From Entomobacter blattae (GTDB lineage Bacteria; Pseudomonadota; Alphaproteobacteria; Acetobacterales; Acetobacteraceae), in assembly GCF_014672835.1 (NCBI RefSeq), contig NZ_CP060244.1:847001-911000 (forward strand): a stretch of 64,000 bases of DNA, read 5' to 3'. The notes beneath the pieces are model-generated. The model did no database searches. It had not been told where the DNA came from and was given only the letters and a program-made list of their open reading frames with translations. The first letter of the stretch is position 1. Each line of letters opens with the position of its first letter. Below are positions 16,741 through 58,466 of this stretch, piece by piece. The position numbers and the translations under genes were made by a program.

Positions 16741-17276
16741 AACCGGAAATGGTTTTTACCCGGCGGTTTTCTATGGGCCATCGCTTGATCCATTCAGGGA
16801 GCGATGTCTGCGCTCTGCCACATGGCCATAATGAATATGTTAAAGTGTATTTGCATCCCGTGCAAACCGTAAGGCTGGATGGCCGGGCCAACATGATTCA
16901 GGCTTTTTCTGAGGCTAAATCCACCTGGCATCGTTTTGTAGACACCAAGATTGATCACGCCCTGCAACTTTCAGAGGATGACCCGTTGCTGGAGTGGTTT
17001 TTTACCCATGAACCCCAGCGTGCCCAGCGGATTATGGTGACCCCTGGGGATCCCACCACCGAGCTTACCGCCTGCCTACTTCTTGCCAAGCTGAATGCCT
17101 TTTTGCAGGCGAATGGGAATATTTTGGCCTGCCAGAAAATCATGCTGGAAGAAACCCCCACCAATACCGTAACCTATGAGGGCAATCCCCATGATTTTCT
17201 GCCCCTCTCTGATAGGGCAGAGAATGAACGCTGGTGGTGCCGCCCCGATATGAGTATTGCAGATTGTAAGAATTAA
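16737..17276 (+). CDS. queD: 6-carboxy-5,6,7,8-tetrahydropterin synthase, QueD-like
   Basis: PTPS-family enzyme making 6-carboxy-tetrahydropterin from dihydroneopterin triphosphate. 179 residues from the ATG overlapping the queC stop, with AGAGGAGAAAAG just upstream; a longer frame from 16689 is less likely. Zinc His and catalytic Cys are seen in GHRLIH and [21 protein letters not shown] is the C-terminal Glu motif. Longer than the ~120-residue minimal QueD, as in the alphaproteobacterial subgroup. The stop is 44 bp before the heptanucleotide array. Confidence 0.88.
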
Positions 17277-17320
17277 TCGTTCGATGAGGGTTGCAAGAGT
17301 GGTGGAAAAGGGTCAATGTT

Positions 17321-17600
17321 GCCCAAAGCCCAAAGCCCAAAGCCCAAAGCCCAAAGCCCAAAGCCCAAAGCCCAAAGCCCAAAGCCCAAAGCCCAAAGCC
17401 CAAAGCCCAAAGCCCAAAGCCCAAAGCCCAAAGCCCAAAGCCCAAAGCCCAAAGCCCAAAGCCCAAAGCCCAAAGCCCAAAGCCCAAAGCCCAAAGCCCA
17501 AAGCCCAAAGCCCAAAGCCCAAAGCCCAAAGCCCAAAGCCCAAAGCCCAAAGCCCAAAGCCCAAAGCCCAAAGCCCAAAGCCCAAAGCCCAAAGCCCAGA
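17321..17600. repeat. Heptanucleotide tandem array, 39 perfect copies of GCCCAAA
   Basis: Thirty-nine uninterrupted copies run from 17321 to 17593, followed by one variant unit (GCCCAGA). Because 7 is not a multiple of 3, the array is open in all frames on both strands, encoding PKAQSPK-type heptads on + and GFGLWAL-type heptads on -. A change of one unit shifts the frame, as in phase-variable tracts, but I see no convincing gene spanning it. It lies 45 bp after queD. Perfect identity means recent expansion or continuous homogenisation by slippage. Confidence 0.97.
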
Positions 17601-18399
17601 TAGCGCTCTAAAGGCTAGGAAAACGGTAGAACCAGCTATTGTCTACCTCTACAGGAACCTCTTAGGTTCAAACTCCCTCTTCCTTACATATGTTCCCCCC
17701 AGTGATTTTCCCCGTGGTGTTCGCTGTGATTTTAATAGAAAAACTCCTCTCATTGTGCTACGTTATATCCTAGGGCGTGCTGTGACACGGTGCTATTCTA
17801 CCCGCCGTAGCCTGACATTTGTTTGTCTGAGCGCAATATGGGTTCTGGTAGGCCCATCAGCGTGCCTAACTCTCCTCCTCTTTATTTTTAAACGGTTGTA
17901 AACTACCTACAGGGCAGAGTTTTTCTGCTGCCTGAGCAGGCGTCTGAGCTTTTTTTGCCTATTGACTCATTTGCTCAAGAATGGACGGGTTATGGAGAGG
18001 GATAAGGCCATTGATTGGGTGTAGAAAAATGGACGTATGGTATTCCCACTTTAGCCTTAACAGGGGCGTGATGCGGTTATCCAATAGTCAGGTGGGGTGA
18101 ATATGCGGATTTATTGGCATTTCAAAATCCTCTTCCTATAAGCGATTATACACTATTTCAGTATATACTATTCCAGAAAAAACCGGATCTATTTAACGCC
18201 ACGGGACGCAGGGGCTGGATATTAGCAGAGGCCTGGATGTTCAATCAGCGCCATTAATGCTCCAATCACGGAATCTGATGGTGCCGTTTTACAAATCCGC
18301 TTCGTCAGAGTTGCAGAGAGGCGCTTGTTATTCGTGATGAAAACAGGTGAGCTTAAAGGAGGCGCGTAAATTCTTTAAAACAGTGAAGAGGGAAAGGTG
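17601..18399. other. Spacer after the heptanucleotide array, possibly eroded coding DNA
   Basis: No intact gene. Around 17950-18250 one plus frame interrupted by three stops stays protein-like (EKWTYGIPTLALTGA, then VRWGEYADLLAFQNPLPI, then RRGWILAEAWMFNQ), which suggests a decayed gene that I cannot identify. A 13-14 bp direct repeat (ACTATTTCAG/ACTATTCCAG) lies at about 18150-18176. Confidence 0.35.
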
Positions 18400-28931: not shown

Positions 28932-31900
28932 ATGTCCCTATCACGCTTTTTTATTGATCGACCGATTTTTGCCTGGGTGGTAGCCCTTATTATTTCCATT
29001 ATAGGCGTTATTCAAATTATCAGTCTACCGGTGGCACAATGGCCGTTAATTGCCCCGCCGCCTATTACTATTTCTGCCACCTATCCAGGGGCTACGGCTG
29101 ATACTGTTCAAAGAACAGTGGTAGATCCCATCTTGCAGAGTGTCTACGGGCTGGACAATCTGGAATATATTTCTGCTGTGGCCAATGCTGATGGAAGCAG
29201 CACCATCACGCTGACCTTTGCCCAGGGCACGAACCCTGATACGGCAGCCACCCAGGTGCTGATTCGTATGAATGTGGCGAATTCCCTGTTGCCATCGGTG
29301 GTAGCCCTTCAGGGAATTCGTATCAGTAAGTCCAATAAAAGCCTAAGCATGGTGGTGAGCTTAAGCTCAGAAGACAACTCCATGGACGAGGCGGCCTTGG
29401 GCGACCTTATGGCTACGGATGTACAAAACCCCGTAACTCGTTTGAACGGTATTGGCGATTACCTTCTGTTTTCGTCCGAATATGCTATGCGTGTGTGGCT
29501 TGATCCCGACAAGATGAATAACTACCAGCTTAATGTTGGTGATGTCATGCAGTCCATCGAGGCCCAGAATGCCGAACAGCCCTTGGGGGAATTCGGAAAA
29601 TTGCCGGCTCTGCCCCAGACACGGACCTATGCCCTCTCTAGCGGTATTAGGCGTTTAATGTCACCTGAGCAGTTTCAGAATATTCTACTCAAGGTCAAAA
29701 CGAATGGAGCTACCGTCCATCTTTCTGACATTGCTAAGGTAGAGCTGGGGCCTATGCAGTTCCAACCCTTGGGCATGCTTAACGGCCATCAGATTGCGCC
29801 TTTGGGCCTTAAGCTTTCGCCGACAGCAAACCAGCTTGCTGTTGCGAATGAGGTCTATGACAAAATGAAGGACCTCTCGCGGTATTTCCCTCCCCATACC
29901 AAGGTTGAATACCCAGTCGATACCTCCCCCTTTGTGGTTGCCTCCATGCATGAAGTGGTAGAAACATTGGTTATTGCCGTGCTCTTGGTGGTGGTGGTGA
30001 TGTATTTGTTCTTGCAAAGCTGGCGGGCAACACTTGTGCCTTCTATTGCAGTGCCTGTGGTGTTGCTGGGGACATTTGCCATTTTAGGGTTTGCCGGGTT
30101 TACCATTAACACTTTGACTATGTTAGCCATGGTTCTTGCTATTGGGCTGCTGGTTGATGATGCGATCGTTGTGGTGGAAAATGTTGAACGCGTGATGGAA
30201 GAAGACAATCTGGATGCCAAGGAGGCTACGCGTGTCTCTATGGATCAGATCAGTGGGGCCTTGGTCGGTATTGCTGTTGTGCTTTCGGTTGTTTTTATTC
30301 CTATGGCCTTTTTCAGTGGTTCTGCTGGCGTGGTTTATAGGCAGTTTTCCATTACTATTGTTTCGGCCATGATTCTCTCTGTTATCATTGCCCTTATTTT
30401 TTCACCGGCCTTATGTGCAACCTTGCTGAAACCTCGTGAAGAAGGAAAAAAGCCATTTTGGTTTTTCCGGAAATTTAACCAGGGTTTTGAGTGGATGGTC
30501 AGCCATTATATCCGCTGTGTTAAAGTGATGATGAACCACTGGGTGATCACCCTGATCGCCTATCTTGCGATTTGTGCGGTTGTGGCACTCTTTTATATGC
30601 GTATTCCTGGTGGCTTTATGCCAGATGAGGATCAGGGGGAGTTCTATATTCAGACCACCTTGGCCCCAGGGGCTTCGGCTGCCCAGGTTGCAGCCGTTAA
30701 CGAGCAGATTATGAATTACTACCTTACCCAGGAAAAGGATTCTGTTGAGCTGTGCTTTACAGCGATTGGCTTTAATTTTGGGGGCCAGGCACAGAATGCA
30801 GCTTTTGGGGCTGTGCATCTTAAACCCTTTGATGAGCGAAGAGGAAAGCAAGATTCGGCTGAGGCCGTTATTGCCCGTTCGCGCAAGTTCTTCTCGACCA
30901 TCCGAGGGGCAACGATTATTCCCTTTCTTCCACCCCCTGTGAAGGATTTGGGAAATGCCACCGGTTTTGACCTTGAGCTTGAAGACCGTGGCCATCTCGG
31001 GGTACAAAAAATGGCAGAGGCCAGACGCAAGCTGTTAAGAATGGCCAGTGCTGATAAAAGGCTTGTGGCTGTTCGCCCGAATGGGCTGAGTGACGCTCCC
31101 GAATACACTTTTAATATTGATCGGCAAAAAGCCAGTGCCCAGGGTGTTTCAATTAGTGATATCAACACGATGCTGGCAACCATTATTGGCTCTAACGATG
31201 CAGGTCTTTTTAACCTTCGTGGGCGCGTGAAGCATGTGTTTGTACAAGGGGCACCAGATTCGCGTATGAAGCCGGAGCAGTTGTTGCAAAAATGGTATAT
31301 CCGCAATGGACAAGGGAGCATGGTTCCACTCAGCACATTTGTAACAGGGCACTGGACAACAGGGCGCCTTAAGGTGGAAACCTATAATGGCTACTCCTCT
31401 TACGAAATTGTAGGCCAAGGGGCAGCGGGGATCAGCTCTGGCCAGGCTATGAAAATTATGGAAGAGTATGTGGCCAAACTTGGCCCTGGTATAGGGCATG
31501 AGTGGACGGGCATGTCATATGAAGAGCAGAAAAGCGCGGGTCAGGCCTGGAAGCTTTATGCGATTTCCATTGTTATTGTCTTGCTCTCTCTTGCCGCCCT
31601 TTATGAAAGCTGGCCTATCCCCTTTGCGGTGATGATGGTTGTTCCCTTGGGAATTTTGGGGGCCACAGGCTTAACCATTTTGCGCGGGTTAAGTAACGAC
31701 GTCTACTTCCAGGTGGGGCTGTTAACAACAGTAGGACTTTCAGCGAAAAACGCCATTCTGATTGTGGAATTTGCCAAGGAGCATTATGATTCCGGTAAAA
31801 GTCTGTTTGAGTCAGCCTGGCTTGCTGCCCATGAGCGTATTCGCCCCATTTTAATGACATCACTGGCCTTTGTGTTTGGTGTTCTGCCCTTAGCTATTGC

Positions 31901-32090
31901 CACTGGGCCTGGGGCTGCCAGCCATGTGGATATGGGTACTAGCCTTACCGGTGGGGTTGTCAGTGCAACTGTTTTGGCCCTGCTTTTTGTACCTGTGTTT
32001 TTTATTGTGGTGTTGCGGGCCTTTGGTGTGAAACCCCATCCTATACAAAAAGAAGCTTCAAAGACAACAGCAGGACAGGCTATGGAATGA
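28932..32090 (+). CDS. RND multidrug efflux permease, MexB/AcrB (HAE1) family
   Basis: 1052 residues, normal length, with 12 transmembrane helices and two large periplasmic loops. Start MSLSRFFIDRPIFAWVVALI is typical. The proton-relay Asp pair is in LAIGLLVDDAIVVVENVERV and the relay Lys in VGLSAKNAILIVEFAKEH. It exports drugs, bile-like or plant compounds using proton flow; the substrate is not predictable. The stop overlaps the channel gene start by 4 bp. A short decayed copy of part of this gene lies at 55160-55250 on the other strand. Confidence 0.94.
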   Translation: MSLSRFFIDRPIFAWVVALIISIIGVIQIISLPVAQWPLIAPPPITISATYPGATADTVQRTVVDPILQSVYGLDNLEYISAVANADGSSTITLTFAQGTNPDTAATQVLIRMNVANSLLPSVVALQGIRISKSNKSLSMVVSLSSEDNSMDEAALGDLMATDVQNPVTRLNGIGDYLLFSSEYAMRVWLDPDKMNNYQLNVGDVMQSIEAQNAEQPLGEFGKLPALPQTRTYALSSGIRRLMSPEQFQNILLKVKTNGATVHLSDIAKVELGPMQFQPLGMLNGHQIAPLGLKLSPTANQLAVANEVYDKMKDLSRYFPPHTKVEYPVDTSPFVVASMHEVVETLVIAVLLVVVVMYLFLQSWRATLVPSIAVPVVLLGTFAILGFAGFTINTLTMLAMVLAIGLLVDDAIVVVENVERVMEEDNLDAKEATRVSMDQISGALVGIAVVLSVVFIPMAFFSGSAGVVYRQFSITIVSAMILSVIIALIFSPALCATLLKPREEGKKPFWFFRKFNQGFEWMVSHYIRCVKVMMNHWVITLIAYLAICAVVALFYMRIPGGFMPDEDQGEFYIQTTLAPGASAAQVAAVNEQIMNYYLTQEKDSVELCFTAIGFNFGGQAQNAAFGAVHLKPFDERRGKQDSAEAVIARSRKFFSTIRGATIIPFLPPPVKDLGNATGFDLELEDRGHLGVQKMAEARRKLLRMASADKRLVAVRPNGLSDAPEYTFNIDRQKASAQGVSISDINTMLATIIGSNDAGLFNLRGRVKHVFVQGAPDSRMKPEQLLQKWYIRNGQGSMVPLSTFVTGHWTTGRLKVETYNGYSSYEIVGQGAAGISSGQAMKIMEEYVAKLGPGIGHEWTGMSYEEQKSAGQAWKLYAISIVIVLLSLAALYESWPIPFAVMMVVPLGILGATGLTILRGLSNDVYFQVGLLTTVGLSAKNAILIVEFAKEHYDSGKSLFESAWLAAHERIRPILMTSLAFVFGVLPLAIATGPGAASHVDMGTSLTGGVVSATVLALLFVPVFFIVVLRAFGVKPHPIQKEASKTTAGQAME

Positions 32091-50926: not shown

Positions 50927-52009
50927 ATGTCGTTTAACAGTTTTGGCCATATGTTTCGCGTTACGACATGGGGTGAAAGTCATGGGCCAGCCATTGGATG
51001 CGTGGTAGATGGCTGCCCTTCGCGTATTCCTTTATCTGAGGCGGATATCCAGCCCTTTCTTGATCGACGCAGGCCTGGGCAATCGCGTTTTACCACTCAG
51101 CGCCAGGAGGCCGACCAGGTTAAGATCCTGTCTGGAGTGTTTGAAGGCCAGACAACAGGCACACCTATTGCCTTAATGATTGAAAATACAGACCAGCGCT
51201 CCCGCGATTATGGTGATATTGCAGCGCGTTATCGTCCTGGCCATGCGGATTTTACCTATGATCAGAAATATGGGATTAGGGATTATCGGGGTGGTGGGCG
51301 CTCTTCTGCCCGAGAGACGGCCATGCGGGTGGCGGCTGGTGCTGTAGCCCTTAAGGTGCTTGCAACCCTTTTGGGCCCTGCGGTAAGGATAACGGGCGCA
51401 TTGGTGAAAATGGGGCAATACAGCGTGGACTATGCCCGTTGGGATGATGCTGAAATTCAGAATAACCCGTTTTTTTGTCCTGATGCAGGCGTGGTTTCGC
51501 TATGGGAGGAGTATCTTACCAGCTTACGAAAGGCGGGCTCTTCGATTGGGGGAGTGGTTGAAGTGCGTGCCGAAGGGATACCGCCTGGGTTAGGAGCCCC
51601 TGTTTACGGAAAACTGGATGCAGATTTGGCTGCCGCCTTAATGGGGATTAATGCGGTTAAGGGGGTAGAGATTGGCGAGGGGTTTGCTGCAGCAAATCTC
51701 AGGGGGGAAGACAATGCCGACCCCATTCGTCAAGAGGGGGGAGAGGTGCGTTTTCTCAGCAACCATGCCGGTGGAATTTTGGGGGGGATCTCTACCGGTC
51801 AGCCCATCATTGCCCGCTTTGCCGTAAAGCCCACTAGCTCCATTCTTGTCCCCGTACCGTCCATTTCATCGACGGGAGATAATGTTGAGGTGATCACCAA
51901 AGGCCGGCATGACCCGTGTGTAGGCATAAGGGCTGTACCAGTGGGTGAGGCTATGATGGCCTGTGTGCTGGCCGATCATTTGTTACGCCATCGTGGCCAA
52001 CAGGGATAA
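50927..52009 (+). CDS. aroC: Chorismate synthase
   Basis: Makes chorismate from EPSP with reduced FMN, the last step of the shikimate pathway. 360 residues. [67 protein letters not shown] and KPTSSI with [13 protein letters not shown] are the family signatures. Complete. A 263-bp part (51368-51630) is duplicated just downstream at 52411-52674. Confidence 0.96.
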
Positions 52010-52410: not shown

Positions 52411-52674
52411 CTTTTGGGCCCTGCGGTAAGGATAACGGGCGCATTGGTGAAAATGGGGCAGTACGGTGTGGATTATGCCCGTTGGGATGATGCTGAAATT
52501 CAGAATAACCCGTTTTTTTGTCCTGATACAGGTGTGGTTTCGCTATGGGAGGAGTCTCTATGCCACTTTACGAAAGGCGGGTTCTTCGATTGGGGGAGTG
52601 GTTGAAGTGCGTGCCGAAGGGATACCGCTTGGGTTAGGGGTCCCTGTTTACGGAAAACTGGATGCAGATCTGGC
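52411..52674 (+). pseudogene. aroC: Partial duplicate of aroC
   Basis: A 264-bp direct copy of 51368-51630, about 1.04 kb from the parent. By eye there are about 17 differences, most of them C/T or A/G transitions, plus a one-base insertion with a cluster of changes near 52555-52570 that shifts the frame. It keeps [16 protein letters not shown] and [16 protein letters not shown]. It lacks start, end and active-site parts, so it is not functional. Confidence 0.95.
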
Positions 52675-55159: not shown

Positions 55160-55250
55160 CGCAAGGCAGACATGAAGGCACAATCTAGCAATCGTTAAGC
55201 ATTCCCAAAGGTTGGAACTGCATAGGCCCCAGCTTCAGCTTAGCAAAGAA
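55160..55250 (-). pseudogene. Short decayed copy of the RND pump gene
   Basis: The reverse complement matches the intact pump gene around 29735-29820 at roughly 80% by eye. The block GGGGCCTATGCAGTTCCAAC is identical, and the peptide LGPMQFQPLGMLN is preserved before frames break. About 90 bp only. Confidence 0.8.
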
Positions 55251-55944: not shown

Positions 55945-56549
55945 TCCGCTCTATTGAAAAAAAGGTTTCCTTATTGGAAGATGATGATCGTGCCCTTTCC
56001 TGTAAAGGGTGTAAAGCCTAAGAGAATTTTGCTAATAATTTGCTAATAATATGAGGATTGATTTTGGGAAAAAGGAGTGGTCTGGGGCAAAAGGTTATGA
56101 GGTGAAAAAGGTCATGAGGTGAAGCTGAAAATTCTTCTAAGGAAATTTACTGAGCGCCCCTATTAAGTTCCCCCTTATGGTTGCAGCCACTTTGGATATG
56201 GCAAGGGAGAAGGAATCTCTTTTAAGGGCAGGGAGACGAACCTTTTTCCTGAATTTTCGCTGATTTATTGTTGAGTTAAGTTTGTTGTTTAGTCAATGGG
56301 TTTTAGCATGAGATTTTTCACGCCAATATGTAGAAACGCCAGTGTGAAGAAAAAACTTAAGCACCCAGTCTTAAGAGCCCAGTCTATTTTGTTTTCATGT
56401 TTTATTTTCCAAAGCGGATGGGAATTTTAAGAAGACAGGTAAAGATGAACACTTCTCAAAGTTCTTTTAATTTTCATCCCAAAGTTAATTTTCATTTCAA
56501 AACATGGGCTCTTATTAAACGATAGAGCGTAAATGGTATTAAATGATAG
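55945..56549. other. Spacer before the rpsN-rpsH relic
   Basis: About 600 bp, AT-rich, no gene recognised. Short direct repeats include TTTGCTAATAAT (about 56027-56052), AAAAGGTTATGAGGTGA / AAAAGGTCATGAGGTGA (about 56089-56122) and TTAATTTTCAT (about 56468-56495). Confidence 0.35.
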
Positions 56550-56603
56550 AGAGATTTGGCATCATCTGGCCAAATTCCAGACTTGGTAAAGTCAAGCTGG
56601 TAA
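56550..56603 (+). pseudogene. rpsN: rpsN (ribosomal protein S14) 3' end fragment
   Basis: The frame reads RDLASSGQIPDLVKSSW and then a stop, the universally conserved end of S14 (G-x-[IV]-P-G-[LV]-x-K-[AS]-S-W). It lies 12 bp before the rpsH start, as in the spc operon, so one colinear operon piece was copied. Upstream codons are unrecognisable. Confidence 0.85.
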
Positions 56604-56615
56604 GGGTATTATATC

Positions 56616-56900
56616 ATGGTACTTTCCGATCCATTGGGGGATATGATGACTCGTATCCGAAATGCACAGCGTGCTCGGCATACTGTGTGTGTTGCGCCTT
56701 CTTCAAAATTGCGTGCAAATGTTCTTGAAGCCCTTCGTCGTGAAGGTTATATTCGTGGCTATACTGTCGAGGAAATAAGAGCAGGGATTTCTCAGCTTCG
56801 TATTGAGTTGAAGTATAATGAAGGAGAGCCTGCGATTAAGGAACTCCAACGCGTTTCTAAACCAGGGCGTAGGGTTTATTCCAAGATTAAAGAGCTATAG
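56616..56900 (+). pseudogene. rpsH: Truncated rpsH (ribosomal protein S8), N-terminal 94 codons
   Basis: An intact frame starting at ATG reads LSDPLGDMMTRIRNAQRARH, SSKLRANVLEALRREGYIRGY, and YNEGEPAIKELQRVSKPGRR. S8 is normally ~130 residues; here a stop follows YSKIKEL, removing the C-terminal domain that makes the core rRNA contacts. Either a relic still in frame or, less likely, an expressed S8 fragment. rplF, which should follow, is absent. Confidence 0.85.
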
Positions 56901-57049
56901 AGATTTAAGAGGAAGATCAGGCTAAAGGGGTGTGCCGCTTCAGAGGAATGGCGCTTGCCAGCAGGTTTTGTATTTTTTATGATAATGCGATATCGTCAAT
57001 GCCAACGCCTCGTTTGGAGAAGGGCCAAGTTTTCCTTCCAAAGGGTTAA

Positions 57050-57175
57050 ATGGCAGGCAAAAACAAAAGCGTGGTAGAATGGGGGAAACATCTTGCAGCA
57101 GGTGCACTTTTTTTGGCGAGCTGGTCTGCCCGATTTAAAAATGCTTTTTGGCATGAGGGAATTTTTCTGAAATGA
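57050..57175 (+). CDS. Small protein ORF overlapping cbpA
   Basis: 41 codons beginning MAGKNKSVVEWGKHLAAG, with hydrophobic ALFLASW and a basic/aromatic end (ARFKNAFWHEGIFLK). AAGGG lies five bases before the ATG, and its stop overlaps the cbpA start as ATGA, so translation is coupled. Composition suggests a small membrane-associated or amphipathic protein. No family recognised; it is too short for ordinary gene calling. Reality is inferred from the ribosome site and coupling. Confidence 0.55.
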   Translation: MAGKNKSVVEWGKHLAAGALFLASWSARFKNAFWHEGIFLK

Positions 57176-58089
57176 GCCAGGATCCTTATAAAATACTCGG
57201 AGTGGAGAAAACAGCCAGCGAGGCTGAGATCCGCAAGGCCTATCGGGCCCTGGCCAAGAAATATCATCCAGACCTTAACCCCGATAATAAGGAAATGGAA
57301 GAGAAGTTTAAGGCCATTGGGGAAGCCCATGCCCTTCTTTCCGATAAAGAGAAAAGGGCCCGCTATGACAGGGGTGAGATTGATGCCTCTGGCCAGGAAA
57401 CGCCTTTCGGGCGGGGGTATGGTGGGGGATCGTATCGGGATTTTGCCGAAGGCGCGCAAGGGTTTCGCTATAGCCATGGTGGGGGGCCAGAAGAAGCTTT
57501 CTCCCATGCCTATTCAGAGGCAGATCTGGGCGATATTTTCAAAGATCTTTTCTCTCAAGGGGGTGGGCGCAGGCAAAGGCGGGGCCCAGCTAAGGGAAGT
57601 GATGCGTCTTATGCGTTGAGTATCCCTCTTTTGGATGCCATTAATGGTGGAACATCGCGTATTACCTTGCCCAATGGTTCAACCCTGGATGTTAAGATCC
57701 CTCCTGGCATTCAAGAGGGGCAGGTGCTTCGTTTGCGGGGCAAGGGCGCGCCAGGTTTTCAAGGAGGCGAAGATGGAGACGCCCTGATTACCATTTCGAT
57801 TAAGCCTGATGCCGTTTACACCCGAGAGGGGAATGATGTGCGCATGACACAGGATATTGATTTAAAAACTGCCGTTTTGGGGGGCAGCATTTCCGTAAGA
57901 ACGCCCTCTGGCGAGGTTAACCTTACTGTTCCGCCCCATTCTGATTCGGGCAAAGTGTTGCGGCTGCGTGGGCGTGGGGTTAAGGCCCATGGTGGGCAGG
58001 AAGATGGCAACCTTTATGTGGTTCTTCAAGTTGTCATTGGTAAGACTAATCCACAGCTTGAAGATTTTTTAAAAAACTGGTCACCTTGA
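57172..58089 (+). CDS. cbpA: DnaJ-like co-chaperone, CbpA type
   Basis: 305 residues. J domain: DPYKILGVEKTASEAEIRKA, with the HPD motif in KKYHPDLNPDN. A Gly/Phe-rich linker follows. Two C-terminal substrate-binding domains (KIPPGIQEGQVLRLRGKG; LTVPPHSDSGKVLRLRGRG). No zinc finger, so type B rather than DnaJ proper. Stimulates DnaK. Followed 56 bp later by cbpM. Confidence 0.93.
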   Translation: MSQDPYKILGVEKTASEAEIRKAYRALAKKYHPDLNPDNKEMEEKFKAIGEAHALLSDKEKRARYDRGEIDASGQETPFGRGYGGGSYRDFAEGAQGFRYSHGGGPEEAFSHAYSEADLGDIFKDLFSQGGGRRQRRGPAKGSDASYALSIPLLDAINGGTSRITLPNGSTLDVKIPPGIQEGQVLRLRGKGAPGFQGGEDGDALITISIKPDAVYTREGNDVRMTQDIDLKTAVLGGSISVRTPSGEVNLTVPPHSDSGKVLRLRGRGVKAHGGQEDGNLYVVLQVVIGKTNPQLEDFLKNWSP

Positions 58090-58145: not shown

Positions 58146-58466
58146 TTGATTACAATTGAAGCATTATGTGGGCGTGTTTCTGGCCTTAACCCATCAGAGA
58201 TTGAACGTTGGGTAGACAATCACTGGGTGCGTCCAGATGGGGTTTCGGGCCATTATATGTTTTGCGAAATTGATGAAGCCCGGGTGCGCCTTATTCGTGA
58301 TTTACGCGACGATATGGGGGTTCATGAAGAGCATATTTCCCTTATCCTTTCCCTGGTTGACCAGCTCTATTCAGCCCGCCGGCAGATTAACTATCTCCGC
58401 AGGGCCATAACAACCGATGACTTGCCTGAGCTGAAATCGATGTTGCGGGGTCTCCTCGAAAAATAG
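58146..58466 (+). CDS. cbpM: Chaperone modulator CbpM-like protein
   Basis: 106 residues, MerR-like fold. ITIEALCGRVSGLNPSEIER with WVDNHWVRPDG matches CbpM, which binds the J domain of CbpA and inhibits it. EIDEARVRLIRDLRDDMGVH and a C-terminal helix follow. TTG start. The order cbpA-cbpM is standard. Confidence 0.88.
   Translation: MITIEALCGRVSGLNPSEIERWVDNHWVRPDGVSGHYMFCEIDEARVRLIRDLRDDMGVHEEHISLILSLVDQLYSARRQINYLRRAITTDDLPELKSMLRGLLEK

Follow-up and report, generated by a model that had tools for sequence, protein, structure and literature searches.

A 41-codon leader frame overlapping cbpA in Entomobacter blattae, and a different conserved small protein in the same slot in acetic acid bacteria

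Does the short open reading frame that runs into cbpA in Entomobacter blattae encode a small protein coupled to this co-chaperone gene, or is it simply an open stretch of leader? We addressed this question in a window of 64,000 nucleotides (NZ_CP060244.1, positions 847,001 to 911,000 of the forward strand), which is the whole stretch of DNA that was analysed and to which coordinates refer unless a locus (L number) is named, and in the genome as a whole, one contig of 2,701,842 bases. The region contains the following features.

56550 to 56896, + strand: additional, broken copy of rpsH (the ribosomal protein S8 gene), which matches the intact gene elsewhere in the genome at 98% identity over 347 bases
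56955 to 56983, + strand: sigma-70-like promoter TTGCCA-17-TATGAT, in agreement with the consensus at 10 of 12 positions, candidate promoter of cbpA and the leader ORF
57050 to 57175, + strand: leader ORF (P0001), orphan, 41 codons
57154 to 57175, + strand: ribosome site of cbpA (GAGGGA) and ATGA overlap, both inside the leader ORF
57172 to 58089, + strand: cbpA, DnaJ-type co-chaperone of 305 codons, with a J domain and a DnaJ C-terminal domain
58146 to 58466, + strand: cbpM-like gene, 106 codons, TTG start, with a MerR_2 score of 26.6, just below the Pfam cut-off of 29

The 41-codon frame is present as a sequence-only reading of the region had described it, and its translation is MAGKNKSVVEWGKHLAAGALFLASWSARFKNAFWHEGIFLK. 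A stop codon lies in frame immediately 5' of its ATG, so that no longer N-terminus is possible, and its TGA shares the bases ATGA at 57172 with the cbpA start codon. With a start and a ribosome site of its own and a stop that overlaps the next start, the frame has the anatomy of a translationally coupled leader ORF. The ribosome site had been called good; with a duplex energy of -4.7 kcal/mol it is middling, since 29% of the 28 long ATG ORFs, and 18% of the 2219 ATGs that the window contains, do as well or better, and it is weaker than the site of cbpA itself (-6.1 kcal/mol). The overlap with cbpA is real but less telling than it appears, since the second codon of cbpA encodes serine (ATG AGC) and any open frame in this register ends there; the ATGA is thus not independent evidence. 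Serine is the second CbpA residue in most of the relatives examined, where the start reads ATGAG or GTGAG, and ATGA or GTGA is seen at the cbpA start in relatives with and without a small gene. A hydrophobic stretch is likewise present, but it is short for a membrane span (Kyte-Doolittle mean of 1.54 for the best 12 residues and of 0.83 for the best 19).

The genes that follow are those of a CbpA/CbpM pair, as the co-chaperone carries both DnaJ-type domains and a MerR_2-type CbpM candidate lies downstream, albeit with a score below the cut-off. CbpM, a small regulator whose gene follows cbpA, resembles the putative leader ORF product in being a small protein of the cbpA operon. Unlike CbpM, the leader ORF lies upstream of cbpA and matches no family, and the CbpM-like protein has its own separate gene. 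The nearest named matches of cbpA are found in Acetobacter musti and Acetobacter fallax (62%).

If the leader ORF were a conserved protein-coding gene, homologues differing mainly by synonymous changes would be expected. A protein search of 397 genomes of the family, including its own, returned a single real match, the genome itself (E = 4.9e-24), followed by a match at E = 0.019, and no credible relative was found in the 396 other genomes. At E values up to 0.5, 60 of the 397 genomes were listed; the 29 matches that were inspected, a subset of those listed with E values of at least 0.019, looked like chance matches. A motif that recurred at residues 15-33 turned out, in several genera, to belong to frames of greater length, and the best short match (L039) was in a different register from a 572-codon frame. 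Upstream of the cbpA genes most similar to this one (up to 71% identity) there is no P0001-like protein, and the ORF has no match in Pfam or NCBIfam, none among phages and, among plasmids, only one of 38% identity that is not credible (E = 0.8). The expectation of the sequence-only reading that the frame would be conserved upstream of cbpA in close relatives is therefore not borne out at the level of other genera, the genus itself being represented by one genome. Given the codon statistics described below, a lineage-specific peptide is possible.

The idea of a small protein coupled to cbpA outside the known annotation was nevertheless partly right: such a conserved gene exists in the family and has no Pfam or NCBIfam model, but it encodes a different protein and is not the ORF in the window. 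In acetic acid bacteria, a conserved protein of 48-61 residues (alignment A2) occupies the same slot before cbpA. It is present in seven of the 29 closest relative loci (L067-L095) and in 19 of 36 other tested loci, a set that includes loci fetched for having a match; L117, L120, L130 and L132 are further loci listed with it. A six-row profile matched 84 of the 397 genomes and 28 of 102 genera at E values up to 0.01, of which the weakest may be chance matches. Among the 30 loci kept from this search, the small gene is joined to the DnaJ start in 25, overlapping it by 1 or 4 bases in 24 and separated from it by a 2-base gap in the remaining one (L140) if ATG is the start. The other five loci comprise one that cannot be read because of a contig end (L142) and four from other genera in which a longer relative of the protein lies apart from cbpA (L133, L139, L143 and L144); by eye, the one in L133 seems to follow argG. 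In a further 16 fetched loci (L145-L160), the small gene lies within 14 bases of cbpA without exception. Two members allow a comparison at the level of bases.

L109, 2324 to 2488: conserved small gene of A. musti, next to the GTG start of cbpA
L110, 2324 to 2488: conserved small gene of A. fallax, next to the GTG start of cbpA

The two genes differ at 30 bases, 22 of which are third codon positions, as expected for a protein under selection. The A. musti member is predicted to form two helices (residues 2-23 and 28-41) and has no PDB fold match at E values up to 0.001. Profile matches to PDB sequences were mostly to short stretches of designed or repetitive helical proteins and were not counted. 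No convincing Pfam or NCBIfam family emerged either; isolated matches were confined to one or two of 28 members, the best of them (E = 0.00097) to a eukaryotic domain. Beyond the family, a class-level sample of 337 genomes gave four matches, one of them weak and outside the family and the other three within it. Searches of the open-access literature, with passages of PMC4063869, brought up no description of a small gene in front of cbpA. As judged by these profile searches, the protein is widespread in acetic acid bacteria, although some lineages, among them that of the window, lack it, and no family model describes it. Should it bind or regulate CbpA, the co-chaperone would have a second dedicated partner besides CbpM, and the lineages without it would be natural knock-outs in which a role in CbpA function could be tested. 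Taken alone, the window frame is of modest weight, being an orphan leader ORF whose codons are suggestive, and we consider the conserved small protein the more useful outcome.

Could the leader ORF be a diverged member of this protein? The two resemble each other in lying between a promoter and cbpA, in size (48-61 versus 41 residues) and in ending on or close to the cbpA start, but they share no sequence similarity. Neither the six-row nor a 31-row profile matched the leader ORF, the 31-row profile matched none of the three forward frames of the window leader, and no member was found anywhere in the genome (best E = 1.55). The conserved protein is acidic, with two predicted helices and the pattern P-[RK]-L...AG...DV..A.L..LLD, whereas the leader ORF peptide is basic (net charge +4) and is predicted from its sequence to form a single helix (residues 6-40). 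A decayed relic of the small gene in the leader was likewise rejected, as the score of the leader in a frameshift-tolerant alignment (11.7) was close to the mean of shuffles (11.5), 54 of 150 of which scored as high; by comparison, two members scored above 80 and decayed or absent loci 9 to 13. The residues PRLE at about 57010 were not counted as a relic for the same reason. On these comparisons, the leader ORF is not a member of the conserved small protein.

The window also differs from its relatives in what lies further upstream. In all 30 relative loci examined (L010 and L067-L095), cbpA, or the small gene together with cbpA, is preceded at fixed spacing by TTGACC-N15-CCCATTAT, which we take to be a promoter of the heat-shock type. 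In the window leader it was not found with up to three mismatches, the nearest place being at 56150 and the total at chance level, and the whole genome contains no exact match. What the leader does have is the sigma-70-like site at 56955-56983; six such sites were found in the region against 2.8 expected, and the match is not evidence of function. The broken rpsH copy reads 94 codons (56616-56900) up to an early stop and ends 153 bases upstream of the leader ORF. An RNA element in place of a peptide was also considered and rejected: there was no Rfam match in 56880-57300 at E values up to 5, and folding was no better than that of shuffles (z = 0.92).

Since the conserved promoter and the small gene are gone and a broken rpsH copy lies just upstream, the cbpA leader has probably been replaced by rearrangement. 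The reading we prefer, and to which we would give an even chance, is that P0001 is an orphan leader ORF in this rewired leader, probably translated, whose effect, if it has one, would be to feed ribosomes into cbpA by coupling. Rearrangement close to the broken rpsH copy would have replaced the old promoter and small gene; the sigma-70-like site would then give rise to a leader of about 180 bases carrying the 41-codon frame; the frame would be translated at some level; and ribosomes terminating at the ATGA might restart on cbpA, adding to initiation at GAGGGA. The peptide itself would most likely be without conserved function. The position in the slot, the ATGA overlap, the gene-like codons, the lack of relatives, the loss of the promoter and the rpsH copy are all consistent with such a rewired leader. 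Known coupled leader ORFs, which work by termination and reinitiation at ATGA, similarly consist of a short ORF with its own start and a stop overlapping the next start; here, in contrast, it is the anatomy that is seen and the coupling that we infer, and cbpA has its own and better ribosome site, so that coupling may be unneeded. Two further points weigh against this reading: the high-ranking codons could mean that the peptide is functional, and conservation within the genus could be hidden, as the genus is represented by one genome.

Less probable, yet possible, is that the frame is open by chance and the leader untranslated, with cbpA translated from GAGGGA alone and the ATGA a by-product of the serine codon. 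When the 271 bases preceding cbpA were dinucleotide-shuffled 5000 times, with the ATGA held fixed, 4.4% of the shuffles contained a frame that starts with ATG, has 41 codons or more and stops at the ATGA; this is not a small chance and also counts against the rewired-leader reading. This figure rises to 10.4% if GTG and TTG starts are allowed, and a frame of at least 41 codons occurs somewhere in the leader in 58% of shuffles. In the window, four ATG ORFs of at least 25 codons abut long ORFs, two of them of at least 41 codons, a count given without the total of long ORFs. The missing conservation in the family, the middling ribosome site and the last residues of the ORF, which are fixed by the ribosome site of cbpA, also fit a chance frame. 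Against it stands the codon usage, which is gene-like: the leader ORF ranks 8 of 371 among window ORFs of 35-70 codons and 3 of 122 among those small ORFs that lie outside long ORFs, and about 99% of the windows taken off-frame (1695) and of those from intergenic DNA (930) have a lower codon score. About half of this score is due to amino-acid make-up; when only synonymous choice is scored, 20 of the 371 and 9 of the 122 small ORFs, the leader ORF included, reach its value. Codon use is the best evidence for coding, and the leader ORF does somewhat, though not decisively, better than chance.

We consider it unlikely that the frame encodes a genuine small protein specific to this lineage, one that is co-produced with CbpA, takes the place of the lost protein and perhaps sits peripherally on the membrane or binds CbpA. 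Gene-like codons would be expected of it, its position and overlap are those of the conserved small protein, and the predicted helix is 35 residues long (mean pLDDT 80) in a peptide with a positive charge and a short hydrophobic run. Such a single helix is, however, easily obtained for a sequence of this kind (pTM 0.37), the hydrophobic run is short for a membrane span, and relatives are lacking in the family genomes, plasmids and phages. It is more doubtful still that an unrelated 41-residue peptide evolved in the same slot after the loss of partner and promoter and again serves CbpA, as a non-homologous replacement. Least probable of all is that the frame is a piece of some other gene that arrived with the rpsH copy and stays open by chance. 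This would suit the gene-like codons and a genome with gene pieces strewn through its gaps (rpsH in three complete or partial copies, a 94-base and a 72-base copy), but no parent exists in the genome, where a protein search with the leader ORF finds only itself and a DNA search adds only matches of 16-21 bases.

Gene pieces do seem to be scattered in the gaps of this genome. Besides the intact rpsH gene (L097), there are two broken copies, 98% identical, one in the window and one at 1435-1681 of L098, and the latter lies beside a 94-base copy of a neighbouring gene. A 72-base inverted copy (29731-29802 and 55175-55246, 83% alike) brings part of the long ORF 28932-32090 into intergenic DNA, and two stretches of ORF 50927-52009 are repeated downstream at 94-95% identity (51368-51630 and 52411-52674) as a partial gene copy. 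Finally, a perfect 14-base tandem repeat of about 20 or more units (17265-17668) lies inside the 214-codon ORF 17257-17901, with a repeat unit that is not a multiple of three.
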